DNA of 64,000 nucleotides from Desulfonatronospira thiodismutans ASO3-1 (GTDB taxonomy: Bacteria; Desulfobacterota; Desulfovibrionia; Desulfovibrionales; Desulfonatronovibrionaceae), in assembly GCF_000174435.1 (NCBI RefSeq), contig NZ_ACJN02000003.1, positions 202,263 through 266,262 on the forward strand, read 5' to 3'. Both the position numbers and the translations under genes were made by a program. The notes below the pieces were generated by a model. That model was not told the DNA's origin and did not search any database. It saw only the letters and a program-made list of their open reading frames with translations. Below, in pieces: positions 6,740-63,515 of this stretch. Numbering within the stretch: the first letter of the stretch is position 1; the number at the start of each line of letters is the position of its first letter.

Positions 6740-6853
6740 CTGTTTTCCTCCATTGTTAACATTTCACTAACCCTGGCCGGTCGTTTTGTTTTTGCTGCTT
6801 ACAAACAAATACGGGGCGAGGCTTGCCCCTGTACTCACCTAAAGCTGGCTACG

Positions 6854-7070
6854 CCCGCACCCCATTTTTTTCACGCAAAGGCGCTAAGATCGCTAAGGAA
6901 GGCAGCCTTGTCCAAAGCCGTGTCCCGGTTTTGGACAATACACCTGCTTCGCGTCTTTGACTTTGCGTACTTTGCGTCTTAGCGTCTTTGCGTGAGAATT
7001 TTTTTGTTTTTAATGACCCCAGTGTATTGGAAGAAAATACACGGGGCAAGCAAGGTTTCAGGAGTAAGTC
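6854..7070 (+). repeat. Dispersed repeat, left copy of an inverted pair
   Basis: About 215 bp containing CACGCAAAGGCGCTAAGATC, a 'TTGTCCAAA...TTTTGGACAA' inverted repeat, CGTCTTTGCGTGAGAAT and a CCCCAGTGTATT / AATACACGGGG hairpin. A copy in the opposite orientation lies at 15177-15443 with roughly 90% identity by eye. It abuts the stop codon of the DUF4143 ATPase gene. No coding potential is evident. Confidence 0.8.
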
Positions 7071-7071
7071 A

Positions 7072-8418
7072 CTAAAAGTTTGATGACGTCATGATTTTTC
7101 CATGCTCAAGAATAGCCGGAATGGCCGATTCCAGTGGAACGAAGCGCACCGGACGATCCTGCACCATGACAGTCGTATCCAGGGTTAGATTGACCACGAA
7201 CAAAACTGACGGCTCATAGGCATCCAGGAAGCTCCTGGCGGAACGAGAGACGGCCGGACGACTCATGCGGCCGGCCTTGACTTCTACGGCGATGACTTGA
7301 TGGCCGTCACTAAGGACAAAATCCACTTCAGCTTTGGAGGTGGAACGCCAGTACTGCACGGACCATCTAATTGGCAGGTTCTTGAGCAGCTCGGACAGCA
7401 GCCAGTTCTCCACCAGCGCCCCGGTGTCCGGTCGCTCCAGGATATCCGGTTCTGAAACTTGACCCAGTAAGACGTTACGAATGCCGTTGTCCACAAAGTA
7501 GCATTTGGGATTGCGGGTCACTTCAGAACGCTTTCCCTCCTTAAAAGGCAAAATACGTCGTACAATATGGGTTTCTTCCAGGATATCCAGATAATTCTGG
7601 ACTGTCTTGCGATTCACACCGCAGTCCTGCGCCAGATTGGACATGTTCAGCAGGTTGCCGACGTCAAAGGCCAACAGCTTCAACAAACGGCGAAAGGCGT
7701 CTGGATACCGGACCTGGAACATGTCTGATGCGTCGCGCAGAATGAATGCCTCAATCAGCTCCCAGAGCACAGCCTCCGGAGCAGACGAGAACCAGACTTC
7801 CGGATACCCACCAAAAGTCAAGTGCCGCGCAAGCTGCCCGCGACGCTTGTCCATGACCAATGCCGGCGGCAAAGTTTTGGAGGGCGCAGCAGTCTCTTCC
7901 AGGGAAAACGGCAGAAGTCTATGCCGGATGGATCGACCAGCCAGTGACTCTCTAGTCCTGGCCATCAGGTGGAAGCTGGAGGAACCCGTAACTAAGATTT
8001 CTTCCGCATAACCCAGGTCCACAAGCCCTTTCAGGAACAGCCCGGCCTCGGGAAGGTGCTGGGCCTCTTCGAAAAATAGAGGTACAGGTCCGGGTACAAG
8101 TTCTTTTAGATCGCGCAGAAAAGGAACCGCCTCTTTGCACCAGGAGCGGATCAACATGTCCTCGCACAGGAGAAACAGCGGATGCCTGCCGGATTTTTGA
8201 AACATGCGCCAGGCCAGGGTTGACTTTCCGGCCTGTCGTGGCCCGATGAGCAGCCGCACCTTGGGCTTGCCGAGCATAGGTTCTTCAAGGCGGCTCTGCG
8301 CAAGGGAGCGCTGTACATAATTTTCAGGAATGTGTAATGCGACAAATTGCGAAGGCGTCACCTCATCCCGCAGCCAGGGATTCAGAAAAAGTATGCGTTG
8401 AACTAAGTGACTGTCCAT
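7072..8418 (-). CDS. ATP-binding protein, AAA_14/DUF4143 family
   Basis: The 448-residue protein has a P-loop (GPRQAGKST, residues 59-67), a Walker B-like PVPLFFEEAQHL near residue 110, the sensor LVTGSSSF, and then the DUF4143 region with the winged-helix like VNRKTVQNYLDILEETHIVR and a nuclease-like end (AEVDFVLSDGHQVIAVEVKA, residues 364-383). This is the common DUF4143 ATPase layout of anaerobes and archaea. The role is unknown; an accessory or defence function is often guessed because these genes move between genomes. A second intact copy (59114) and a broken one (about 61280-61625) are in the window. Confidence 0.85.
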   Translation of the reverse strand: MDSHLVQRILFLNPWLRDEVTPSQFVALHIPENYVQRSLAQSRLEEPMLGKPKVRLLIGPRQAGKSTLAWRMFQKSGRHPLFLLCEDMLIRSWCKEAVPFLRDLKELVPGPVPLFFEEAQHLPEAGLFLKGLVDLGYAEEILVTGSSSFHLMARTRESLAGRSIRHRLLPFSLEETAAPSKTLPPALVMDKRRGQLARHLTFGGYPEVWFSSAPEAVLWELIEAFILRDASDMFQVRYPDAFRRLLKLLAFDVGNLLNMSNLAQDCGVNRKTVQNYLDILEETHIVRRILPFKEGKRSEVTRNPKCYFVDNGIRNVLLGQVSEPDILERPDTGALVENWLLSELLKNLPIRWSVQYWRSTSKAEVDFVLSDGHQVIAVEVKAGRMSRPAVSRSARSFLDAYEPSVLFVVNLTLDTTVMVQDRPVRFVPLESAIPAILEHGKIMTSSNF

Positions 8419-8851
8419 ATATTCTCCCTTACGCCCTGGTCATTCTGCCGACGGGCTACTGCGCAGAGTCTGCAATGGCCATGTCGAGCGATCCCAAAAG
8501 CAAGAGACCATGTGTTTTATGCACGCTTAACACTGCCAAATGGTATCGTCAATACCGTTTAACGGGGTTATTCGCGACCAGTCCATGCTTCAATCTCTAC
8601 TTTCATCACCCGCTCGCACCACCCCCTCAGGCATAGTGGAACAATAATCTCCATCATCTTCCCCGGTAACCATTCAGAGGGTGCCGGAACCATGCAAATA
8701 AAGGCCTCTTGCTTTACAGGCGGGCAATACTTTTCTGGGGCTTTTTTTTTCTATAAATGTTGGAGCTTCTTTGAAACCCCTGCTATCTGTCAAGCCAAAC
8801 ACTCTCCTTCTCCCCCTTGAAATCCTGTAGTTTTCCTTTATAATTCAAGCC
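8419..8851. other. Intergenic region with one REP half-site
   Basis: This divergent intergenic stretch should hold the promoters of the ATPase (minus) and the AddB-like gene (plus). It carries one GGTAACCATTCAGAGGG half-site at about 8668, a member of the GTAACCATTCAGGGGG palindrome family. Short open frames here have no recognisable protein features. No clear -35/-10 pair can be named with confidence. Confidence 0.5.
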
Positions 8852-11566
8852 ATGCCCCAAACCCATTATCTTTCTGAAAAGGATGTTTTCCAGGCCCTGG
8901 AAGAGGGAGCTTTGCTGCTCACAGTAAACCGCAGGCTGAGCCGCAGCCTGCTGCAGCGCTTTACCAGCCACCAGGCTTCAACTGGCCGCACCGCCTGGGA
9001 GACTCCGGATATCCTGCCCTTGAGCAGCTGGATCATGCGCTGCATGGAAGAGATCACCTACCACCACCCGGATGTTTCCCACCCCTTGCCCATCACCCGG
9101 GACCAGGAGCTTTCTCTGTGGGAGGATATCATCCGGCAGTCCCCGCACTCCCGGGGACTTCTGCACCTGGAGGAAACAGCCCGCCAGGCGGCCCGGGCAT
9201 GGACCCTTTTTGAGCAATGGAACCTGCAGGACCAACAGGACCCGGCACTCTGGAGCTCTCCTGACCACAGGGCCTTTCTGGAATGGAGCACTGCTTTCAG
9301 GGATTATACCCAAGGCCGCGGCTGGATGGAGGAGGCAAGGCATACCCGGCATGTGGCCCGCATGTTTGAGAAGGGCTGCCTGCCTTGCCCCGCACACCTG
9401 GTTCTGGCCGGCCTGGAAAATCTAAGCCCGGTTCAGGAGCATATCCTGGATGTCCTGGATGGTCTTGGCTGTAAGATAAACCACCTGGAACCCGCCCGCA
9501 ACGACCCCGCAATAACCCTGATGCCCCTGGCAGACCGGGAGCAGGAGATGCGCACCTGTGCCCTGTGGGTGCGCACTAAGCTTGAATCAGACCATGAACA
9601 GCGCATAGGGGTGGTGGTCCCGGATCTCTACTCTGTGCGCCAGGAAATCATACACACCTTTGATGCGGTTTTGCATCCGGATACTGCCTTTGAACCCCTG
9701 CCCCCGGAAAAGCGGGCCTATGACCTGTCCCTGGGAAGACCGCTGTCCGGCTATCCCTTGATACGCTCTGCCCTGCACCTTCTGGATCTGCGCCTGGACC
9801 CCCTGCCCCTGGAGACAGTCAGTGCCGTCTTGAACTCCCCTTTCCTGAAAGGGGCAAAAAGTGAAACACCAGCCCGCAGCGGCCTGGAAACACTGCTGCG
9901 CAAAACCCGCGAACCACAGATCTCTTTTTCCTTCCTTCTGGACAAGGCCGCAGACAGTTCAAAATCCTGGTCCTGCCTTGTTCTTGCCCGGAGCCTCAAG
10001 GCCTTTCAGGCCAGGATCAAGGAGCTGCCATCAACCCAGCCTCCCAGTGCCTGGGCCCAGGATCTTGATCTTTTGCTGCAGGATCTGGGCTGGCCGGGGG
10101 ACATAACCCTCAGCAGTCATGAATACCAGACCGTGCAGGCCTTCAACGCCTGCCTCAAACGCCTGGCCGGCCTGGACCGGGTAATGCCCTCCACGGGCAT
10201 GTCCCAGGCGACTCAGACACTCAGCCGGATACTTAATGAGACCATATTTCAGCCGGAACCGCCTGAAGTCCGGGTACGCATAATGGGCATGCTGGAAGCG
10301 GAAAGCGAATCCTTTGACGAGTTGTGGATCATGGGGCTTACCGACCAGGCCTGGCCCCAGTCTCCCGAGCCCAGCCCCTTTCTGCCCGTATCTCTGCAGA
10401 AACACCTGGATATGCCCCGTTCAAGCCCGCAGCATGAACTGGATTACGCCCGCAGGATCATGCACAGGCTTTTGCAGAACACCTCCCGGGCCATACTCAG
10501 CTACCCCTGCCGGGAAGAGGATCTGGAACTTTTGCCCAGCCCCCTGTTAAGGGAGATATCAGGCCTGGAATTCAATGAGCCCGGGCTGTTGCCCGACCCG
10601 GACCCCTGGGCGGGACTTTCTCCAGGGGAGCAGCTTAAATATTTCCAGAATGAACAGGCCCCGCCCTTGAGCCAGGCATCCCGGGCTCCCGGAGGAACCG
10701 GGGTGCTTCGCTCCCAGGCACTCTGTCCCTTCCAGGCCTTTGCCCGTCACCGCATGCACGCCCGGAGCCTGGAAGAACCAGTCGTGGGCCTGGGTCCCCC
10801 CGAGAGGGGCATAATCATGCACGCGGCCCTGGAATATTTCTGGCAATCCTGCCGGGATCAGGCTGCTCTTCTTAATCTGACAGGCGACAGGCGTCTGCAG
10901 ATGATTGACCAGGCAGTGGATCAGGCCATCCGGGAAATGCATTCCCAGAGGCCGCAGACAATGACCTCCCGGTTTCAGGAACTGGAAAGAGAGCGCCTGC
11001 AGGATCTTTTGCAGGAATGGCTGGCCCTGGAGGAACAAAGACAGCCCTTCCAGGTGCAGGAACTGGAGAAACGCTCAAACATCAGCATCAATGGGCTGGA
11101 GCTGAATGTCGTGGCCGACAGGATGGATCGCCTGGAAGACGGAAGGCTGGTGGTAATTGACTACAAGTCCGGCAGGCATGCCATGTCCGAATGGTTCAAA
11201 AAGCGCCCGGTGGAGCCCCAGGTCCCCCTTTACACCCTGTTTTGCCCCGAACATGTAGCCGGGGTTTATTTCGGGGTTGTGCGCAAGGGAGAATGCGCCT
11301 TTGTGGGCCTGGGACAGGAGGACGGCATAGTGCCCGGCTGCAAGGGCTTTGCATCCCATAAGCTTACCAGTCATTACCAGCACTGGGACGAACTTTTGCA
11401 GGACTGGAAAAAAAGCCTGGAAAAGCTGGCCCAGGAATTCATGCAGGGCCAGGCCCGGGTTGATCCGGAAAGCCCTAACGCCTGCCGCCAGTGCGACCTG
11501 GAATCTATTTGCCGCATATTTGAAACCGGACAACCTTTTACACAGGAACCCCCTGATGTCACCTGA
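8852..11566 (+). CDS. AddB-like PD-(D/E)XK nuclease, probable double-strand break repair protein
   Basis: The 904-residue protein resembles the AddB-like partners of UvrD-type helicase-nucleases (TIGR03623-type). The C-terminal RecB-family nuclease is visible as ERGIIMHAALEYFW, the catalytic VVIDYKSG (around residue 768) and EPQVPLYTLF. Cysteines in ALCPFQAF (around 625) and NACRQCDLESIC (around 880) are placed like the iron-sulfur staple of AddB. Its end overlaps the start of the AddA-like gene by 11 bp, so the two are co-translated and presumably form one complex that processes DNA ends for recombination. Confidence 0.85.
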   Translation: MPQTHYLSEKDVFQALEEGALLLTVNRRLSRSLLQRFTSHQASTGRTAWETPDILPLSSWIMRCMEEITYHHPDVSHPLPITRDQELSLWEDIIRQSPHSRGLLHLEETARQAARAWTLFEQWNLQDQQDPALWSSPDHRAFLEWSTAFRDYTQGRGWMEEARHTRHVARMFEKGCLPCPAHLVLAGLENLSPVQEHILDVLDGLGCKINHLEPARNDPAITLMPLADREQEMRTCALWVRTKLESDHEQRIGVVVPDLYSVRQEIIHTFDAVLHPDTAFEPLPPEKRAYDLSLGRPLSGYPLIRSALHLLDLRLDPLPLETVSAVLNSPFLKGAKSETPARSGLETLLRKTREPQISFSFLLDKAADSSKSWSCLVLARSLKAFQARIKELPSTQPPSAWAQDLDLLLQDLGWPGDITLSSHEYQTVQAFNACLKRLAGLDRVMPSTGMSQATQTLSRILNETIFQPEPPEVRVRIMGMLEAESESFDELWIMGLTDQAWPQSPEPSPFLPVSLQKHLDMPRSSPQHELDYARRIMHRLLQNTSRAILSYPCREEDLELLPSPLLREISGLEFNEPGLLPDPDPWAGLSPGEQLKYFQNEQAPPLSQASRAPGGTGVLRSQALCPFQAFARHRMHARSLEEPVVGLGPPERGIIMHAALEYFWQSCRDQAALLNLTGDRRLQMIDQAVDQAIREMHSQRPQTMTSRFQELERERLQDLLQEWLALEEQRQPFQVQELEKRSNISINGLELNVVADRMDRLEDGRLVVIDYKSGRHAMSEWFKKRPVEPQVPLYTLFCPEHVAGVYFGVVRKGECAFVGLGQEDGIVPGCKGFASHKLTSHYQHWDELLQDWKKSLEKLAQEFMQGQARVDPESPNACRQCDLESICRIFETGQPFTQEPPDVT

Positions 11567-14500
11567 AATTGAAGACGCAGCACAGCGAAGTCAAGCCCTG
11601 GACCCTAAACGTTCATTCATAGTCCAGGCCCCGGCCGGATCGGGCAAGACCGAACTGCTGACCCAGCGCACCCTGGCCCTTCTATGCACTGTCCAGGCCC
11701 CGGAAGAGGTGGTGGCCATCACCTTCACCCGCAAGGCCGCCGGGGAGATGCGCACCCGCATCCTGCAGGCCCTCTCCCGGGCGGCTGACGGGGAAACACC
11801 CGGTGCACCCCATGAAAAGACCACCCTGGACCTGGCCGCCCGGGTCCTGGAAAGAAGCCGCAGCCTTGGCTGGGAACTGGAATCCTCCCCGGGCAGGCTG
11901 CGCATTCAGACCATAGATTCTCTTTGCTCCGGGCTTGTATCCCGCATGCCCCTCCTCTCCAGCCTGGGCGGCCAGGGAAGAATAAACGACAATCCCGGGG
12001 AAATGTATCTGCAGGCGGCCCGGTCCACTTTGGCCCAGCTGCACAACTCTTCCCCGGATGCAGGGCATTGGAGGGAATCCATCCGCGTCCTGCTTCGCCA
12101 CCTTGACAACGACCACGACAAGACCTGCCGCCTCATAGCCGGCATGCTCCCCCAGAGAGAGAAATGGCTTCGCCACCTGGCCGACCCGGGCAACAGCCGC
12201 CTGCAGCGACAATACCTGGAACAGGCCCTGACCCGGGCGGTAGAGGAGGAACTAAAGGAAGTAAGCCGGCTCATGCCCTTAGAGGAACTGCCAAGGATTG
12301 CTCGCCTGGCCGGGTTTGCAGCTTCAAACCTTCAGGATGAGGACCAGAAGTCCACCCTGGAAAGACTGGCCGGGCTTGACTCCCTTCCAGGCTGCAATTG
12401 CCGTGACCACCCGGCCTGGTTAGACCTGGCCCGGTTCTGCCTAACCAAGGGCGGGACAATCCGCCGCACTGCAGACAAGAGTCTGGGTTTTCCCGCCCCC
12501 TCCGGCACCCGGGACCCTGAACTCAAGGTCAGGCTGGAGGAAATGAAGGCGCAGTTCAAGGCCTGTATGCAGACTCTGGCCTGCATTCCCGGACTGGAAA
12601 TGCGGCTGCAGGAGGTACGCCTGCTGCCCGGGACCACGTATTCAGGCTCCCAGTGGCAGACCCTGGAAGCACTTTTTGACGTGCTTCGCCTGGCCGCGGC
12701 CTGCCTGCAGCTGGAATTTCAGGACCAGGGCAGCGTGGACTTCACCGAGATCACCACCCGGGCCAGGCAGGCCCTGGGCACGGATGAGGACCCCACAGAC
12801 CTGGCCCTGGTCCTGGACAGCCGCATCCAGCACCTGCTCATGGATGAATTTCAGGACACCAGCATCTCCCAGTACCAGCTCCTGCTGGCCCTGACCGCGG
12901 GCTGGACCCCGGGGGACGGCAGAACCTTCTTTGCAGTGGGGGACCCCATGCAGTCCATCTACGGCTTCAGGGAGGCCGAAGTGGGCCTTTTTCTCCAGGC
13001 CAGAAGCCAGGGTCTGGACCATATCCCCCTTGAGCCCCTGCGGCTCACGGTCAACTTCAGATCCCAGGCCGGCATAGTAGACTGGGCCAACCAGGCCTTT
13101 CCCCGGGTCCTGCCCGAGGTGGAAGATCAGATGACCGGAAGCGTGCCCTACTCCGGCTCCCATGCCTTTCTGCCCCCCCTGGAAGATCCTGCCGTACAGG
13201 TACATCCATTTTTCGATGCAGATTTCCAGCCGGAAAGCAGCCGGATTGTATCCCTGGTCCAGCAGGCCAGGCAGGAAGACCCCGGAGGCACCGTGGCCAT
13301 CCTGGTGCGAAGCAGGCCCCACCTGCAGGCCGCATTACCGGCCCTGCGCCAGAGCGGCCTTGAGTACCAGGCCGTGGAAATAGACCCCCTGAGCCGCCGC
13401 CCGGTAATCCAGGACCTGTGCTCCCTGGCCCGGGCCCTGACTCACCCGGGGCACAACCTGGCCTGGCTGGCGGTCCTGCGCGCCCCCTGGTGCGGTCTGG
13501 ACCTGGAGGACCTGGCCATCCTGGCCGCGGACAAGGATGCTTTCATTGTAAACCGCATCCAGGACCAGGACATTTTGTCCAGCCTGAGTCCTCAGGGCCG
13601 AAGACGCCTGGACAGGGTCAGGGAAATCCTCTTGAAATTTCTACAGCAAAGGCAGCGCAGCGGACTGCGCAGTCAGGTGGAGTCCTGCTGGAAGGCCCTG
13701 GGGGGACCGGACTGCCTGCACTCTCAAAGCCAGCGCCGGGACGCGGATGTTTTTTTCAGACTGCTGCAACAGCGTCTGGAACACTCTCCCCACAGGGTAG
13801 TAGACGAACTGGAAAACGCCGTTGCCGGGCTTTATGCAGGACCGGACACCTCCGCCGGCCAGGATCTGCAGGTCATGACCATCCACAAGGCCAAGGGACT
13901 GGAGTTTGACACCGTTATTATCCCCGGCCTGGGCCGGGCCCCGGGATCTGACGAAAACCCTCTCCTGGTCTGGATGGAGCGTACTTCGCCCCGGGGACAC
14001 ACCGACCTGCTCATGGCCCCCAAAACCGCCACCGGTGAGGATAAAGATCCGGTCTATGCCTATATCCAGCGCCTCATGGCCCGCAAGACCAGCCACGAGG
14101 ACGGCAGGCTTTTGTACGTGGCCTGCACCAGGGCCAGAAAAAGGCTGCACCTCCTGGGTCATACCGGACTGACGGAAAAAGGACTGCCGTCAAAGCCGGC
14201 CGGAGGCTCTCTTCTGGAGTCTTTGTGGCCGGCGGTAAAGGACGAATTTGAACGGGCTGCGGCCACCCCCCGGGATGATGCAGATACCCGGGAAGAACAC
14301 GGAGCTTCAGCAGGGCAGACACTTTACCGCCTGCATCAGGACTGGCAGCCTCCCCGGCTCCCTGCAGGAATCACCACCCCTTCAGACAGCCGGCCGGATC
14401 CCGGACAGGAAAGCATAGTCTTTGACTGGGCCGGGGAGACCATCCGCCTGGCCGGCACATGCGTGCACCGCTGGATGCTGACTATGGCCGAGGAGGGAAT

Positions 14501-14984
14501 TCACAAGTGGAGCGTAAAGAAAATCCGGGGGCTCAAGTCTGTCTTTGCCCGCCAGCTAATGGACCTGGGCATGCTGGAAAAGAGTCTCGAAGAAGGGGTG
14601 GACCTGGTGCAGCAGGCCCTGGAGAACACCCTGAACCATGATACAGGGCGCTGGATTCTGGGGCCAAGGCAGAGGGCGCGCAATGAATACGCCTTGAGCG
14701 GCCTGGACAACGGCCAGGCTGTTGCCGTATCCATGGACCGCACCTTTGTGGATGATGCCGGCCTGCGCTGGATCATAGACTACAAGATCAGCCGGCATTC
14801 AGGAAAAGATGTGCAGCGTTTCCTGGACCAGGAGCAGGCCCGCTACCAGGAGCGCATGCAGACCTATGCCCGGCTCATGCAGGCCGCAGAACCAGGGCCT
14901 GTAGAGCTCGGCCTTTATTTTCCCCTGCTCATGCAGTGGAGGCACTGGCCTGCAGGGGATTATTCCAAGTTGCAATCAAGATGA
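11556..14984 (+). CDS. AddA-like UvrD-family helicase-nuclease
   Basis: A 1142-residue protein, taken from the ATG at 11556 because APAGSGKTELLTQR (Walker A) follows at the distance usual for the family. Other superfamily 1 helicase motifs are visible: ITFTRKAAGEMRTRI, LLMDEFQDTSISQ (Walker B), VGDPMQSIYGFR, LTVNFRSQ, VMTIHKAKGLEFDTVIIPGL and LLYVACTRARKRL. The C terminus carries a RecB-like nuclease motif, WIIDYKISRH. It pairs with the overlapping AddB-like gene. The last codons and the stop (ATTCCAAGTTGCAATCAAG) resemble a dispersed motif also seen at 42985 and, reversed, at 15150-15175, so the end may have been rewritten by a repeat. Confidence 0.9.
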   Translation: MSPEIEDAAQRSQALDPKRSFIVQAPAGSGKTELLTQRTLALLCTVQAPEEVVAITFTRKAAGEMRTRILQALSRAADGETPGAPHEKTTLDLAARVLERSRSLGWELESSPGRLRIQTIDSLCSGLVSRMPLLSSLGGQGRINDNPGEMYLQAARSTLAQLHNSSPDAGHWRESIRVLLRHLDNDHDKTCRLIAGMLPQREKWLRHLADPGNSRLQRQYLEQALTRAVEEELKEVSRLMPLEELPRIARLAGFAASNLQDEDQKSTLERLAGLDSLPGCNCRDHPAWLDLARFCLTKGGTIRRTADKSLGFPAPSGTRDPELKVRLEEMKAQFKACMQTLACIPGLEMRLQEVRLLPGTTYSGSQWQTLEALFDVLRLAAACLQLEFQDQGSVDFTEITTRARQALGTDEDPTDLALVLDSRIQHLLMDEFQDTSISQYQLLLALTAGWTPGDGRTFFAVGDPMQSIYGFREAEVGLFLQARSQGLDHIPLEPLRLTVNFRSQAGIVDWANQAFPRVLPEVEDQMTGSVPYSGSHAFLPPLEDPAVQVHPFFDADFQPESSRIVSLVQQARQEDPGGTVAILVRSRPHLQAALPALRQSGLEYQAVEIDPLSRRPVIQDLCSLARALTHPGHNLAWLAVLRAPWCGLDLEDLAILAADKDAFIVNRIQDQDILSSLSPQGRRRLDRVREILLKFLQQRQRSGLRSQVESCWKALGGPDCLHSQSQRRDADVFFRLLQQRLEHSPHRVVDELENAVAGLYAGPDTSAGQDLQVMTIHKAKGLEFDTVIIPGLGRAPGSDENPLLVWMERTSPRGHTDLLMAPKTATGEDKDPVYAYIQRLMARKTSHEDGRLLYVACTRARKRLHLLGHTGLTEKGLPSKPAGGSLLESLWPAVKDEFERAAATPRDDADTREEHGASAGQTLYRLHQDWQPPRLPAGITTPSDSRPDPGQESIVFDWAGETIRLAGTCVHRWMLTMAEEGIHKWSVKKIRGLKSVFARQLMDLGMLEKSLEEGVDLVQQALENTLNHDTGRWILGPRQRARNEYALSGLDNGQAVAVSMDRTFVDDAGLRWIIDYKISRHSGKDVQRFLDQEQARYQERMQTYARLMQAAEPGPVELGLYFPLLMQWRHWPAGDYSKLQSR

Positions 14985-15503
14985 TTTTTCCAGACAGTTA
15001 TGAATATCACTATATTCGGAAAACCAGAAAAAAATTTTACCATAGAGGAAACAGAGGTACACAGATTTAGCAGTGTCATCTTATGCCTTTTTCTCTGTGA
15101 ATCTCTGTCATCTCTGTGGTGTCAAACATTTGATGACAACGGGCACAAAGATCATCTTGAATGCAAATCGGAATTAGACTTACTCCTGAAACCTTGCTTG
15201 TCACGCCTCTGGCGTGATAAATCTTCTTCCAATACACTGAGGTCACAAAAAACAAGAAAATTCTCACGCAAAGACGCCAAGTACGCAAAGTTAAAGACGC
15301 GAAGCAGGTGTATTGTCCAAAATCGGGCCACGGTTTTGGACAAGGCTGCCTTCCTTAGCGATCTTTGCTTGCCCGGTTAAATGCGTAAGCACCTCGAAGA
15401 GGATTTAACTGGGCGCCTTTGCGTGAAAAAAATGGGTTGCGGGCATGGCCCGCGTTAAATGCAAATGTTAAAAGTCAAAAAAACATCTTCGGATGGGAAA
15501 GCT
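14985..15503. other. Intergenic repeat tract between convergent genes
   Basis: No gene is seen. The stretch starts with CTCTGTGAATCTCTGTCATC-type sequence (about 15097), followed by the reversed dispersed motif at about 15150-15175 and the right copy of the long inverted repeat (15177-15443). The flanking genes AddA (plus) and SNF2 (minus) converge here. Confidence 0.7.
15177..15443 (-). repeat. Dispersed repeat, right copy of an inverted pair
   Basis: Reverse-complement copy of 6854-7070. It shares the TTTTGGACAA pair, the CACGCAAAGACG stretch and the GTGTATTGGAAGAAGAT segment. It has about 45 extra bases inside (a GGCGCCCAGTTAAATCCTC-type hairpin near 15375-15420) and a different core in the CAGTGTATT hairpin, where a small TCACGCC...GGCGTGA palindrome is inserted. 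With the left copy it encloses an 8-kb block holding the ATPase, AddB-like and AddA-like genes. Confidence 0.8.
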
Positions 15504-17420
15504 TTAAAACCCTGGCAGCCTGAACTTCATGGTCACCTCTCCGGTTTCCCTGTCCACCTTGAGCATGGGTTTGTCCTCTTCAGTCTTGTTCAGCTTCTGT
15601 CCAGTGGCCATTTCCAGAAGCCCGCTCATAAATTCCAGTCCCTGATTGAGCACAGCCTCCATCTTTTCCGGACTTTTATCAGGGACGCCAGGCTCACTTC
15701 CGGTGTCATGCCGGGACTGGCCTGCATCGTTTGCGGCCTGACTTTCCTCAGCCATTGCCGTCTGCTCACCCCCGGGCCTGTCTTCGGGTTCAGACGCGCC
15801 CTGGACCTGCGTCCCTGGAAAATCTTCCTGCTGTGATTCAGCCAGGGCCTGGGGATTTAAAAAATGCGGCGTATCCTCGGGGATATCCTCGGAGACCCTG
15901 GACTCTTTACCCCCAAGGTCTTCCTCCATTTCCTGGCCCATCATGGCCCGGAGCTCATTTAGCATCTGGTTGCGCTTTTCCCTGGAAAACTCCACCATAT
16001 CCACGCCGCCGTCAAACACGCCGCTGAAAAGCTCGGTCTTTAGATGAATTCCGGCCAGTATCTTTTCCTCAATGCTGTTTTTGCTCACCAGGTTGATGAC
16101 ATTTATGCTGGTGCTGGTCTGTCCTATGCGGTTCACCCGCCCGATACGCTGGTTCAGCCGGGCCGGGTTCCAGGGCAGCTCGAAGTTCAGCACGCAGTCC
16201 GCTGCCTGCAGGTTCAGCCCGGTCCCCCCGGAATCCGTGGACAGAAAAACTTTGCACTCCGGGTTATTGGTGAACTCGTCAATCAGGGCTTGGCGTTTGT
16301 GCACCGGAATCTTGCCGCTTAACTCCACAAAGTTGATGCCCATTCTGGATAGCTGTTTGGCTATGAGGTAGGTCATGGTGGTCCACTCGCTGAAAATGAC
16401 CATCTTACGCCCGCTTTGGACCACGATTTCATCCAGGATGCCCTCAAGTTCCTTTAGCTTGGGCGAGATCCTGGTGTTGCGGTCCACCAGGTAGGTGGAA
16501 TCACACACCCGGCGCATCTGCAGAAGCAGTTCCTGTATGCGGCGAACGTCCATGGGGGTCAAAAACTTCTTGTTTAAAAGGGGCAGCAGGTACTGCTTGT
16601 ACCCGTCGTGCATCTTGGCCTGAACTTCGGACAGATCTAAGTAATAGGTATTGGTGACCTGGTCCGGCAGATCCTTGAGTACATCTTCCTTGCGCCTGCG
16701 GATTACCAGAGGCTTTAACTTTTCATGCAGAAGATCCAGGTTTCGATACCCCAGGATCTTGTCCTTTTTCTCGCGGCTGAGCATAAAGTGATCCGCTGCA
16801 AACTTCCATAGCGGGGCCAGCATGTGCGGCTCCAGAAACTGCACAATGGAGTAAACATCCTCCAGCTTGTTCTCCAGGGGAGTGCCCGTAAGAACCAGTG
16901 CATGTTTGCGGGGCAGGCTCTTGACCACATCTGCGGTCTTGGTGGCGAAATTCTTGATCCTCTGGGCCTCGTCCAGGATGACCAGGTCAGGCTTGAAGCG
17001 GCGCAGGGTACTCACATCTCGCAGCACAGCCTCATAGTTGGTTATCTTGAACAGGCTTTCATCCTGAAAATAGGTCTGCTGGCGCATTCCGGCCGATCCG
17101 GCCACCACCACGGCCTGCTCCCGGGTAAATTTTTCAATCTCCCGCTTCCACTGCTCCTTGAGAGAGGCCAGGGTGATTACCAGGACCCGGTTGAAGCCGA
17201 ACACCTCTTTTTTTAAAATACCCAGGGCAATAGCCTGCAGGGTCTTTCCCAGACCCATCTCATCACCGATCAGTGCGGCCTTTCGATACAGCCCGAAACG
17301 CACCCCCTCTATCTGGTAGGGATAAAGGGCCGTACTTATGCCCTCAAGAGAGGGAAGCTCTTCCCGGGAAAGCTCATCTACTTCCTGCTTCAAAAGATAC
17401 TCATCCACCCGGTTGTGCAC
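15504..17420 (-). CDS. SNF2-family DNA translocase/helicase (C-terminal part of an amber-interrupted SWIM-SNF2 frame)
   Basis: Read from the GTG at 17420 this is 638 residues. SNF2 motifs are clear: LIGDEMGLGKTLQAIAL (Walker A), LVILDEAQRIKN, LVLTGTPLENKLEDVYSI, STDSGGTGLNLQAADCV and NQRIGRVNRIGQ. An acidic, repeat-free tail of about 130 residues follows. The frame continues upstream without a break into the SWIM zinc-finger gene except for one TAG at 17424-17426. Homologous bacterial SNF2 proteins commonly carry the SWIM domain in the same chain, so this is either a mutated single gene, a stop read through, or a real split with a restart at GTG. No good ribosome-binding site precedes the GTG. 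Confidence 0.8.
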   Translation of the reverse strand: MHNRVDEYLLKQEVDELSREELPSLEGISTALYPYQIEGVRFGLYRKAALIGDEMGLGKTLQAIALGILKKEVFGFNRVLVITLASLKEQWKREIEKFTREQAVVVAGSAGMRQQTYFQDESLFKITNYEAVLRDVSTLRRFKPDLVILDEAQRIKNFATKTADVVKSLPRKHALVLTGTPLENKLEDVYSIVQFLEPHMLAPLWKFAADHFMLSREKKDKILGYRNLDLLHEKLKPLVIRRRKEDVLKDLPDQVTNTYYLDLSEVQAKMHDGYKQYLLPLLNKKFLTPMDVRRIQELLLQMRRVCDSTYLVDRNTRISPKLKELEGILDEIVVQSGRKMVIFSEWTTMTYLIAKQLSRMGINFVELSGKIPVHKRQALIDEFTNNPECKVFLSTDSGGTGLNLQAADCVLNFELPWNPARLNQRIGRVNRIGQTSTSINVINLVSKNSIEEKILAGIHLKTELFSGVFDGGVDMVEFSREKRNQMLNELRAMMGQEMEEDLGGKESRVSEDIPEDTPHFLNPQALAESQQEDFPGTQVQGASEPEDRPGGEQTAMAEESQAANDAGQSRHDTGSEPGVPDKSPEKMEAVLNQGLEFMSGLLEMATGQKLNKTEEDKPMLKVDRETGEVTMKFRLPGF

Positions 17421-17423
17421 TTC

Positions 17424-18245
17424 CTACCGGATGCGCACCTGCTTGCGCTCCCGCACCGCATCCATAAAATCCAGCATGCGTCCCAGGTTTTCAAACCTGA
17501 AAATGCCTTCCTGGTCAAAATATTTCTCCAGTACCGGGGCAATCTCCTGAATCTCGCCTGGAGGGCGTTCACAGAAAAGCCTGGGCAGGCCCTGGGCAGA
17601 GTCCCAGTATACATCCACAAAGGGAAAGAGTTCCTCCCGGCCCTGCTCCAGATCCTTTTTTCTAAGGAGCTGTTCCTTAAGGGCCAGAAGGTGCTTGCAG
17701 GTGCCCAGCTGATTGGTATTGAAATCCGGGCAGGAACAATGTCCCAGCCCGTTAGCCGGGTCATGCAGGGTTACCCTGTACTGCCTGCCCTGCTCTGTTT
17801 CCAGGAGATGATCCCCCTTGATCATGTCCCCGCGGATCAGTTTGAACTCTTCTTTTCTGGCCCGGTTGCGGCGGTCCTCCATGGCTTTTTCCCGGATTTC
17901 TTCAGGAGTAAGATAGTCCGAAAGCTTTTCCGGCTCCTGGGTACTGGACTTGTCCTGCCAATCCTGGACCCGGTCCAGCACATCCAGGGCCACTGCCACC
18001 ACGTGCTTGCACCCCGGGCCGGGATACGGGCAGTCGCAGGAACAGTCCAGGCCATTATCCCCCACAACCACTACAGTGGAATAGTCCCCGTAGTTGCCGT
18101 CCACCTGGTACTCATACCTGCCCTCTTCCGGGAGGGCCTCCATGCACATGTAGGCCCCGTCCTCGTATAAAGTGCGCCCCCGCTGAAAAATCACACTGCT
18201 GTCAGCCACCTGGTCGCGAATTGTCAGCTCATCAAAATCAAGCAT
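17424..18245 (-). CDS. SWIM zinc-finger protein (N-terminal part of the same interrupted frame)
   Basis: The 273-residue protein has two CxC-type zinc signatures: LDCSCDCPYPGPGCKHVVA (around residue 60) and GHCSCPDFNTNQLGTCKHLLA (around residue 168), both fitting SWIM zinc fingers (CxCx(n)CxH). SWIM domains bind nucleic acid or protein and are usual N-terminal parts of bacterial SNF2 helicases. Here the frame stops at TAG (17424-17426), and the same frame resumes as the SNF2 protein two codons later (Glu-Val-His-Asn). The joined product would be about 913 residues, close to single-chain relatives. Confidence 0.8.
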   Translation of the reverse strand: MLDFDELTIRDQVADSSVIFQRGRTLYEDGAYMCMEALPEEGRYEYQVDGNYGDYSTVVVVGDNGLDCSCDCPYPGPGCKHVVAVALDVLDRVQDWQDKSSTQEPEKLSDYLTPEEIREKAMEDRRNRARKEEFKLIRGDMIKGDHLLETEQGRQYRVTLHDPANGLGHCSCPDFNTNQLGTCKHLLALKEQLLRKKDLEQGREELFPFVDVYWDSAQGLPRLFCERPPGEIQEIAPVLEKYFDQEGIFRFENLGRMLDFMDAVRERKQVRIR

Positions 18246-18830
18246 ATTCAGGCTCCTGTCTTGAAATTATCATAAGTCATCGCCGGGAAGTTTCTTTGAA
18301 ATCCATGCCTTCTGTCAAGTTAAACAGGGCCTGTCACGCCCGGTCCAGATACGCCTGCCAAAATTTTTTTTTGCAGGCGCATCTTCATAGCGCTTTCCGG
18401 AGTAAGCCATCTGGAACCGGGCTTGATAATCAAAGGCAGATAAAATCCCCTTGTCAAAATCAAGCGTAAGCATTCAGGGGGTCCTCGGTGGTGACTAATG
18501 GCACAAGGCCAGGGGACTGTCCCCCGCTAAGTAATGATTATGCAGCGTCACAAAATTTTGCGTCTGTACTTTGTGAATTTGTGCAGGACAAGTGTCGCGG
18601 GGACTGTCCCTTTGGCCGGTACCTGCCCCCCTGAATGGTTACAATCAAGCTGTAAAAAATATGCCATTTTTTCCAAGGGGCTGTCTTTGTATCGGAATTG
18701 CATCAGGCCTGCGCCGTATGCAAGCAGGAACCGGTACACGCCCAGCCTCTCCCACTGAACAAGGTACACCAGTTCATGAAAATATAGACTCTCGGTCTGA
18801 CGGGAGTGGCCTATAGTGTTCTTTAAATAA
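18246..18830. other. Non-coding stretch with paired REP half-sites
   Basis: No gene is supported. It holds a composite repeat (18466-18642), a GGGGACTGTCCCCC-like palindrome near 18514 and a second GGGGACTGTCCC at about 18599. The rest shows no recognisable signal. Confidence 0.6.
18466..18642. repeat. REP composite: GTAAGCATTCAGGGGG ... CCCCCCTGAATGGTTAC
   Basis: Inverted half-sites of the GTAACCATTCAGGGGG family at 18466-18481 and 18626-18642 bracket two GGGGACTGTCCC palindromes. Similar arms occur at 8668, 43772-43836, 44631, 45057 and 46220. The layout is like REP doublets, which are moved by RAYT transposases in other bacteria; no such transposase gene is in the window. Confidence 0.7.
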
Positions 18831-44553: not shown

Positions 44554-45112
44554 TATCCTGAGCCTCTTTCTTTAAATTTCGGACGATATTTTATCGTTTC
44601 CGAAACTTTGTCAACATACATTTGCAAAAAGTAACCATTCAGGGGGTCCTCGGTGTTGATTACTGGCACAAGGCCCGGGACTGTCCCGCACTTATTTTTT
44701 TAATGAACAATTGACAGATGTAAGCGTTAGTTGTGACTTACTCCTGAAACCTTGTCACAAAAAACAAGAAAAATTTGAGCCATGACGGGGTTTAGCACTT
44801 GGCACTGGGACTGTTTCATTTTTGGACACTAAGCTCAGGTGCTCTCCCCGCCGCGCATGCGGCTGATGCCTTTTCCTTGCGGGTTCTTATTCCCGCAAGG
44901 AAAAAACATGCTTCTTCAATCTCTTTTATCTGTGTCAATCTGTGTGATCTGTGGGCTAAAAACTCTTTTCTTATCTGGGTTGCGGGCAAAGCCCGCCTTG
45001 GAAAATAAGTGCGGGAATGTCCCCAGTCACGCCAGAGGCGTGATTCCGGCACCAGCCCTGAATGGTTACTGCAAAAAACTTTCTGGAGGCGCATCATGGC
45101 GGACCCGTCGGG
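44554..45112. other. Repeat-rich intergenic region
   Basis: Bounded by GTAACCATTCAGGGGG (44631) and CCCTGAATGGTTAC (45056), each followed or preceded by TGCAAAAA. Inside are GGGACTGTCCCGCACTTATT, a fragment of the long inverted repeat (GACTTACTCCTGAAACCTTG, about 44736) and a small TCACGCCAGAGGCGTGA palindrome (about 45026). No gene is supported. Confidence 0.65.
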
Positions 45113-48649: not shown

Positions 48650-48902
48650 TTATAAATGTCCATTTGATGTTCAGCCATTCATACTCACCAGCACTGCAAA
48701 AAATACATATCCAGCCAAACCCGCCGCAAGGCGGGGACGGAAAGCCACGGGCCCCCGGGATTTAAAAGTCATAGCATACGCGGGCAGCCGGGTTGCCGGA
48801 TGAAGTCCTCTGACAGCTGCTCTGAAGTTCTTCATTTGGTTGTCCATAAGAGGCTTTTAAAACCTGTAAAATGATTATGAAGGGTGGAGAATCATTTCCA
48901 TA

Positions 48903-61072: not shown

Positions 61073-61210
61073 TCCCACGCTCTGTCCCGCCAGGGCGGGA
61101 GAACATCCCCCGGACGCTCCGTGTCCACAGAGAAGAGATATTGCCCACGCAACACCCCAGTGTATTAAAGGAGAATACACGGGGCAGGCCCGGAAGGACA
61201 CGGAAAATTT
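61073..61210. repeat. REP unit and CCCCAGTGTATT hairpin
   Basis: GTTCCCACGCTCTGTCCCGC with CGGACGCTCCGTGTCC, then CACAGAGAAGAGATATTGCCC and a hairpin CCCCAGTGTATT / AATACACGGGG (61157-61187). The part from 61123 to 61210 is repeated at 63118-63285 with about 75 extra bases, and the hairpin also occurs at 7018. Confidence 0.75.
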
Positions 61211-62554: not shown

Positions 62555-63515
62555 GTCGATCTCCCCTCATAAATTGGGCTGATGCAAGCATCCCGCCGAT
62601 TTGGCAATCACGGCCCAGACGATGCCTCGTAATTTAAATCCATCCCGTATGCGGCTTCGCCGTGGTTCGTGGTGAGGTTAGCAGGACACGACATCACCGA
62701 TTCACTGACTTCTTACTGTCTTCTGAACATCTGACTTATAAATCAGGATTTACTCTTACAACTCAATATATTTCTTTGCAACAATCTCAGGCGTTATTCT
62801 TGGTTCTGCGGCTTCGCCGCTGTTCCTGGTTAGTCGTTCTTGGTTCGGCCTTCGGCGTTCCTCGTTCCTGGTTCCTGGTTCGTGGTTCGTAGTTAATGAT
62901 GAACGCGGCTTCGCCGTGGATCTTGGTTTTATGGGCAAATTATGCTGTCGGTAGTAGTCAAAGCACAGGGTTTCGGCGCAGCGTTTGCCCTAATCATAGC
63001 AAGCCCGCCGACCGATGGGATTAACATTACCCCAATAGCTTTCCGGCTGGGGAATGTAAACTCAAAACATGCAGACTATGCTATCTTTACACTTCGCGAT
63101 TAATTTCGGGGAAATACTCCGCGTCCACAGAGAAGAGATATTACCCACCCCAGTACCATCACAAGGATGAGCTACCCCTATAAAATCGGCAGAGCCGGCA
63201 CTTCGTGCATTTCATGGGGCAGCCGCAACACCCCAGTGTATTAAAGGAGAATACACGGGGCAGGCCCGGAAAGACACGGAAAAGTTAATCCCCCAATCCC
63301 TCAATTCCTAAATTCCTAAATTCCCCAATTCCTTCCTAAATCCCTGCCTCTTCCCCATGCCCCATGCCCTATGCCTTCTTCCCCAATCCCCCAATCCCTC
63401 AATTCCTAAATTCCTAAATTCCCCAATTCCTTCCTAAATCCCTGCCTCTTCCCCATGCCCCATGCCCTATGCCTTCTTCCCCAATCCCCCAATCCCTCAA
63501 TTCCCTGCATTCCAG
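62555..63515. other. Long non-coding stretch of mixed repeats
   Basis: No gene is supported. It holds CGGCTTCGCCG-type short palindromes and GGTTC heptamer sequence (62795-62900), a second copy of the CACAGAGAAGAGATATT / CCCCAGTGTATT block (63118-63285) and the 98-bp tandem repeat (63291-63504). Base composition is pyrimidine-rich on the plus strand in the last 200 bases. Confidence 0.65.
63291..63504. repeat. 98-bp tandem repeat made of short CCCCAAT/CCTAAATT-type units
   Basis: Two full units (from 63291 and from 63389) and a partial third (from 63487), each starting CCCCAATCCCTCAATTCC and passing through CCTAAATTCC and CCCCATGCCCCATGCCC. Inside each unit the sequence itself consists of 7-8 base repeats. 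It is almost purely C/T/A on the plus strand. It lies just after the orphan antitoxin gene. Confidence 0.9.

Follow-up and report, generated by a model that had tools for sequence, protein, structure and literature searches.

Genes and repeats at the AddAB locus

The stretch analyzed here (hereafter the window; 64,000 nucleotides of Desulfonatronospira thiodismutans ASO3-1, part of contig C3 in a 4.1-Mb genome of five contigs) contains a pair of long inverted repeats enclosing three genes, and the origin of this pair is our subject. The enclosed genes, which an earlier sequence-only reading had named and which were all assigned by profile matches, encode a DUF4143/AAA_14 ATPase (7072–8418, minus strand), an AddB-like protein (8852–11566, plus strand) and an AddA/RecB-like UvrD-type helicase (11349–14984, plus strand). 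The AddB-like protein carries a C-terminal PDDEXK_1 domain and clears the curated cut-off of TIGR03623 (probable DNA repair protein) with 925.6 bits against 299.6. The NCBIfam AddA equivalogs scored below their cut-offs for the helicase, the best reaching 228.9 bits against 860.75 for addA_alphas, and the protein is therefore named AddA-like only; its start is uncertain, as its relatives mostly align from about residue 60 and the true start may lie further in.

The inverted pair was confirmed at 6839–7072 (plus strand) and 15175–15458 (minus strand), with a similarity far beyond chance. The arms 6840–7070 and 15177–15457 match in four blocks (I1–I4) of 89–93% complementarity, and a global alignment of 6839–7072 with the reverse complement of 15175–15458 gave 209 identical bases among 226 aligned (92%). 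The pairing and the approximately 90% identity proposed in the sequence-only reading were thus borne out, whereas the lengths are 234 and 284 bp rather than about 215 bp. The left copy also touches the stop codon of the ATPase gene, as had been noticed, because the CTAA at 7072–7075 contains the complement of its TAG stop.

The left copy comprises CTAA, a left-end hairpin, CGCAAAG-type arms, a central hairpin and the right end GTTTCAGGAGTAAGTCAC, and the right copy is inverted relative to it. They differ in their hairpins: a tagged hairpin of about 46 bp, CCCAGTTAAAT...GGGCAAGC (15367–15413, minus strand), occurs as an insertion in the right copy and is missing from the left, and near the other end the tagged hairpin CCCCAGTG...CACGGGGCAAGC of the left copy (7017–7051, plus strand) has a different hairpin in its place in the right copy (about 15196–15218). 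Folding z-scores were −7.2 for the left and −5.9 for the right copy, and none of 200 dinucleotide shuffles folded as well for either. No RNA element or tRNA was found at the repeats; the window holds only a tRNA-Val and a c-di-GMP riboswitch (c-di-GMP-I-GGC, 48705–48801), both elsewhere.

Immediately beside the right copy, and abutting it, lies a second kind of dispersed element (14960–15174, no strand assigned; pair I6), which has 28-bp inverted ends and CAGAG-type periodic inner arms, and of which a 90% copy occurs in a relative (G006, contig C227). The AddA stop codon sits in its left arm. This element has replaced the last AddA codons, and the AddA C-terminus differs in another relative (G002).

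The repeats as members of a dispersed family

With 40 of 98 candidates scored, the left copy matches the host genome at least 48 times, or at 39 places once these matches are merged. When two mismatches or fewer are allowed, the genome has 62 instances of the 17-base right end and one of the reversed control pattern, and in 60 of these 62 cases the left end CTAAnGCGGGCnnnGCCCGCAACCCA lies upstream, delimiting elements of 183–671 bp; the left-end hairpin GCGGGC...GCCCGC (GCGGGC...GCCCGCAACCCA) was likewise present in 60 of 62. A third member within the window, with CACAGAT-type arms, lies at 44733–45001 (minus strand), and repeat-matching pieces were detected in 18 of the 41 genomes searched, the host genome being counted among them. 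At one site of contig C3 (460200–462400) three family elements stand in tandem with CTAA junctions in common. A different dispersed repeat, of the GGGACTGTCCC type, lies at 18465–18642, and has several copies in the fetched stretches of the host and of G006.

Given this many dispersed copies, an inverted pair within about 8 kb is expected by chance: when copies were placed at random in 5000 trials, at least one inverted pair within 8.4 kb arose in 25% of the simulated genomes with 18 long copies and in 78% of those with 39 places. The sequence-only reading had offered two explanations of the pair, namely that it forms the ends of a composite mobile or invertible segment carrying the DUF4143, AddB and AddA genes, or that the block was just trapped between two dispersed repeats. 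The former was rejected and is highly improbable; the copies are inverted and 92% identical, so that recombination could in principle flip the block, but each belongs to a 62-copy family with ends of its own, the pairing is explained by chance, no transposase gene was found between the copies, and in no relative examined is the block a unit. The 62 right ends, the 39 places, the chance simulation and the lack of a conserved block argue for the latter, and we conclude that the two repeats very probably arose by separate insertions of a single short mobile element that is dispersed and gene-less, and that the three genes lie between them by coincidence. In such a genome, inverted repeats around genes are to be expected and are uninformative on the mobility of what they enclose, and a false lead is thereby removed.

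The enclosed genes and their neighbors in related genomes

Of 40 relatives, 11 have a full-length AddB homologue, among them four of the six genus members, and the other matches are short; the closest named record, on a contig of a Desulfonatronospira metagenome-assembled genome (MAG), is 98% identical. AddB and AddA were adjacent in six of the ten relative stretches fetched. Within these ten AddB stretches, which include two short contigs (5.7 and 6.9 kb), no match to the DUF4143, SNF2-family or SWIM proteins of the window was found, and none of the repeat ends was found in the six in which AddA adjoins AddB. No relative examined thus has the block as a unit or inverted, and the two findings which the sequence-only reading had named as telling against mobile boundaries, the genes occurring elsewhere without the repeats and many unrelated copies of the repeat, are largely what was obtained.

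That reading had also raised a defence function. In a comparison with the single-protein profiles of PADLOC, the DUF4143 protein matched the candidate PDC-S01 (276 bits); of the proteins encoded outside the repeats, the SNF2-family helicase (15504–17420, minus strand) matched DpdE/ZorD-type helicases, and the neighboring SWIM zinc-finger protein (17424–18245, minus strand) weakly matched PDC-S62 (39 bits). However, AddB had no PADLOC match, AddA matched generic UvrD-type models with GajB as the best, DUF4143 was not matched near AddB in the ten stretches, and the genome contains 25 DUF4143 matches in its 4.1 Mb. With PADLOC matches that are generic or confined to single-gene candidates, a defence island was rejected; an anti-phage module is very unlikely here, and the suggestion stands unsupported, though not disproved. 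Most simply, judging from their families, AddB and AddA look like the cell's nuclease-helicase for double-strand-break repair, and nothing indicates that they cooperate with the repeats.

A different boundary was considered on account of a 28-bp sequence that lies upstream of AddB (8767–8794, plus strand) and again upstream of SWIM (18292–18319, plus strand; 24 of 28 positions identical by count). In the closest relative, G006, the order is SNF2-SWIM-AddB, AddB being head-to-head with SWIM and SNF2, and two contigs (C410 and C483) join the DNA upstream of SWIM to that upstream of AddB through one 28-bp copy where the window has two. By this single-copy junction the order in the window is a circular permutation of that in G006. 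In G001, the SNF2-SWIM homology stops at the 28-bp sequence, after which other open reading frames (ORFs) follow. The real mobile or rearranging unit might then be the 9.5 kb of 8767–18319, AddB-AddA together with SNF2-SWIM, bounded by direct 28-bp repeats and circularized, or else duplicated and trimmed. We regard this as unlikely, since the match between the repeats is imperfect and could reflect a regulatory sequence that both upstream regions share, and since G006 is a MAG of 530 contigs in which the outer flanks of the copy are unassembled. A DUF4143 relative (89%) is found in G006 on a separate 3.8-kb contig (C380) without AddB.

Insertion sites of sister copies

The joined flanks of the 60 elements with both ends were compared with 30 loci from three relatives (the fetching search used 17 of the 60), and junction-spanning alignments in a relative were obtained for 12. 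The clearest are three empty sites in G006, corresponding to elements of 342, 343 and 283 bp, which align at 96–98% identity, two without gaps and one with a single gap; at all three, insertion had occurred at CTAA and no target duplication was visible. Two further empty sites (C4:161635 and C3:390794) were gap-free at 81–85% identity. The sister copies thus entered next to a constant short target that was not duplicated, as expected of PATEs (palindrome-associated transposable elements). As for the target duplications that the sequence-only reading had suggested looking for, none was visible at the sister insertions, and for the window copies no empty site was found in the relatives compared.

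One site is informative as to the side of the target. At C3:420186 the relative has GTAA, as does the left side of the element, and the right side has CTAA, which points to the left tetranucleotide as the target and to the right one as part of the element. Two other sites, C3:178300 and C1:350568, where the right side has CTGA and the relative CTAA, agree with a left-side target, less clearly.

Periodic arms and nested hairpins of the interior

Between these ends the interior consists of inverted arms built of units of about 9 bp, whose sequence is exchangeable, with hairpins inserted into the arms. Among the 60 elements, ACAGGAT units occur in both arms in 37 and CGCAAAG units in 10, and two have a single arm. 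The autocorrelation of the arms was 0.50 at lag 9 and 0.15–0.29 at the other lags from 3 to 15, and the inverted-repeat score reached 15 or more in 37 of 60 (median, 17.5), the maximum after simple base shuffling being 10. A literature search by the arm letters retrieved, among the matches listed, only the shortest, nine-letter term, in unrelated papers.

The inserted hairpins have a recognizable form. The pattern CCC[AG]GT...GGGCARGC gave 39 rows against one with a control tail in about 240 kb of the host genome, a count that gives no genome-wide rate because the sample was picked around the repeats, and that was obtained with a pattern shaped after examples had been seen; at least one of the 39 (C4:136582) looks spurious. 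A general window scan for hairpins with a stem of 7 followed by CARGC did not exceed control tails, and a ranking of all tails at a stem of 10 did not pick out CAGGC, so that the enrichment holds for the CCC[AG]GT...GGGCARGC form alone. Reading of copies with and without a hairpin indicated that the hairpins were inserted precisely, the extra hairpin of the right window copy being a case in point. Near-identical tagged hairpins, CCCCAGTG...GGGGCAGGC, also occur about 2 kb apart at 61155–61189 and 63231–63265, outside the repeat family.

GxxExxY genes between arms of the same design

Arms of this class were also encountered around genes of the GxxExxY family (TIGR04256; PF13366, PDDEXK_3), which were present in 54 of 148 genomes drawn from the phylum. 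We assembled 51 loci, consisting of the 30 best matches, 20 chosen from multi-copy or sister-bearing genomes and the host's own; 50 of them yielded 51 genes, of which 49 were scored and two dropped. With about 130 bp considered on each side, 24 of the 49 have an inverted repeat that scores at least 15, as compared with 5 of 130 other ORFs of the same loci (Mann-Whitney p about 3e-10), although the top control, at 29.5, exceeds every GxxExxY gene. This ORF control replaced a first null of mixed flanks (95% point, 16.5; maximum, 28.5). In all 24 arm pairs scoring 15 or more, the best lag among 4–12 was 8, 9 or 10. The same flanking-repeat test gave 0 of 25 for DUF4143 and 0 of 8 for SNF2 genes, and 2 of 8, 2 of 10 and 3 of 14 for host Y1 genes in three overlapping queries, the repeats of the latter looking non-periodic.

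The proteins retain the residues of a PD-(D/E)XK nuclease (D in 47, E in 48 and K in 48 of 48 aligned sequences; PF13366), and a sequence search of the Protein Data Bank for relatives returned nothing significant (best E, 0.75). With neighbors defined by a longest-ORF rule (n = 50), the gene was on the same strand as the upstream ORF in 36 cases, opposite in 5 and undetermined in 9, and with respect to the downstream ORF the figures were 40, 5 and 5. Seven plasmid loci, from eight records found, were read, of which three (Bernardetia, Gemmatirosa and Bacteroides) score at least 18, the arms in Gemmatirosa belonging to palindromes beside the gene; the Sphingomonas locus has an upstream arm only, by reading, and the other three show none that convinces. 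In two records filed as plasmid, the gene stands between fabD and fabG (Sphingomonas parapaucimobilis) and directly after radA (Bacteroides finegoldii).

Whether gene and arms form a unit was assessed by comparing the joined flanks of 16 of the 23 GxxExxY loci in two genera with seven sister genomes, and junction-spanning alignments resulted for three loci. The flanks of L286 (460 bp) match a second location on their own contig at 94%, with 7 gap bases, and a sister genome at 85%, with ATTTTC on both sides; those of L275 (440 bp) align at 79% with 11 gap bases and no visible duplication, and those of L291 with 29 gap bases. The GxxExxY gene and its arms thus probably constitute a mobile unit of about 440 bp, for which these alignments are good but not conclusive evidence. 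The sister sites of L254, L256/L257 and L284 hold shorter gene-less segments with the same arm design; of the six sister segments scored, four have periodic arms with modest scores of 8 to 14, a different palindrome with a higher score (21.5) occupies the L254 site in G157, and nothing of this kind was found at the L292 site in G134. Two further sister sites (G100 and G129) hold other sequence.

In view of the gene-less arms at some sister sites, descent of the window repeats from a GxxExxY-bearing element is plausible. A broader proposal, which we put forward tentatively and rate as somewhat less than an even prospect, is that the GxxExxY gene and its 8–10-bp-periodic arms would represent an undescribed class of minimal mobile element, of about 430–500 bp with one PD-(D/E)XK nuclease gene, which exchanges its arm sequence freely and keeps its layout, inserts in sense orientation between the genes of operons, is spread over several phyla and gives rise to gene-less descendants, the window repeats carrying such descendants inside a second element. 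Searches of the literature naming GxxExxY, PDDEXK_3, PF13366 or TIGR04256 found no mobile-element role in the texts they covered, subscription papers being mostly outside them, and the novelty of such a class is accordingly provisional.

Proposed mechanism and its significance

Taken together, the element consists of a CTAA target, the left-end hairpin GCGGGC...GCCCGCAACCCA, arms of units of about 9 bp (here of the CGCAAAG type), internal hairpins and the right end GTTTCAGGAGTAAGTCAC. Since its inner arms belong to the class that surrounds GxxExxY genes, its core is most readily taken for a derivative of a GxxExxY element, lacking the gene and borne between the outer ends. A Y1/HUH transposase of the IS200/IS605-RAYT superfamily could mobilize the whole in trans, the element travelling as single-stranded DNA with hairpin ends; Y1 chemistry is the leading candidate, with the chances for and against about evenly balanced. 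IS200/IS605 elements are described as inserting 3′ of a tetra- or pentanucleotide without duplication (PMC7290912), and TnpA-REP proteins as cutting at CT dinucleotides and reading a tagged hairpin, which is bulged in E. coli (PMC8266576).

Y1_Tnp was matched 31 times in the host genome, in some cases by two fragments of a single gene, and the proteins form three similarity groups that we take to be RAYT-like. Among the 20 Y1 loci fetched, a left end lies some way from one gene and a right end some way from another, and none is bracketed by both; a Y1 gene as the parent of the repeats was rejected on this ground. Movement by the GxxExxY nuclease instead of a Y1 transposase was weighed as well. 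GxxExxY genes lie inside arms of the same design, their PD-(D/E)XK residues are conserved as described above, and the host's only such gene stands beside ACAGGAT arms, the commonest type in the family. This gene is located, however, between neighboring palindromes rather than inside one (inverted-repeat score, 13), no activity is known for the protein, and tetranucleotide insertion without duplication together with the left-end hairpin fits Y1 chemistry better, so that we consider the nuclease a rather unlikely mover.

Several observations weigh against the account of independently inserted, Y1-mobilized elements around the AddAB block. No empty site for either window copy was found in the relatives compared, and the remainder of the 12 spanning alignments contain gaps or are weak; the relative carries 39 additional bases at C2:938620, and the alignment at C2:588365, at 71% identity, was left out of the count. 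As to the interior, 11 of 60 elements are unclassed by motif, several of which show other periodic arms by reading (CACAGAT, CACGAAG), and in 23 of 60 the inverted-repeat score is less than 15. The lack of any fetched Y1 locus bracketed by both ends makes the Y1 mover a guess. Finally, the G+C content of AddB-AddA (8852–14984) is 61% against 53% for the window. AddB is as similar to its counterpart in a genome of another family (G018, 54%) as to those of genus members other than G006 (51–56%). From this composition and pattern of similarity, AddB and AddA may themselves have been acquired, and the history of AddB may include transfer.

On balance we regard the block as ordinary, two dispersed elements around a repair gene pair, and the element itself as noteworthy for its exchangeable periodic arms, its nested hairpins and its link to a conserved but little-studied nuclease gene, which is suggestive of mobile elements of very small size. 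Periodic intergenic palindromes of this kind are common in many genomes, where they are not known to have a named origin. Their tie to a conserved small nuclease gene, if true, would give them a testable source, and perhaps one of the smallest autonomous mobile elements; the constant layout and changing arm sequence raise the question of how a protein would recognize its own arms.

Comparison with known systems

The window elements share with PATEs, which retain only the ends of IS200/IS605 elements, a short gene-less form, a left-end hairpin and insertion at a tetranucleotide without target duplication (PMC7290912). They differ in that a parent Y1 gene with their ends was not found among the 20 fetched loci, and in having for an interior a palindrome with exchangeable arms of units of about 9 bp. 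Because none of these loci is bracketed by both ends, we state that the window elements work like PATEs rather than that they are PATEs.

Bacterial MITEs are likewise gene-less, of 70–300 bp, with inverted ends and located near genes (PMC3733652), whereas the outer ends of the window elements are not inverted repeats of each other, and no target duplication was seen. With the REP, REPIN and BIME sequences associated with RAYT, the window elements have in common an intergenic location, many copies and small tagged hairpins. REPs carry a tag and often a bulge (PMC8266576), and each hairpin of the form CCC[AG]GT...GGGCARGC is tagged at one end and contains, close to its base, a pair that is mismatched or wobble. 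The tag of these hairpins is CARGC, however, and not the GTAG or CGTC of REPs (PMC3733652); they sit inside larger elements, and no RAYT gene was matched to them.

The nearest parallel to the GxxExxY loci is provided by Y1 genes flanked by long inverted repeats, the TIRtrons, which resemble them in having a gene between long inverted repeats and, as TIR repeats, dispersed repeat-only copies (PMC3733652). TIRtrons enclose Y1 genes, whereas here the enclosed gene is of the PD-(D/E)XK type and the arms have a period of 8–10 bp. The GxxExxY family itself has genes between inverted arms of 8–10-bp units such as are present inside the window repeats, from which it differs in that the window repeats are gene-less.

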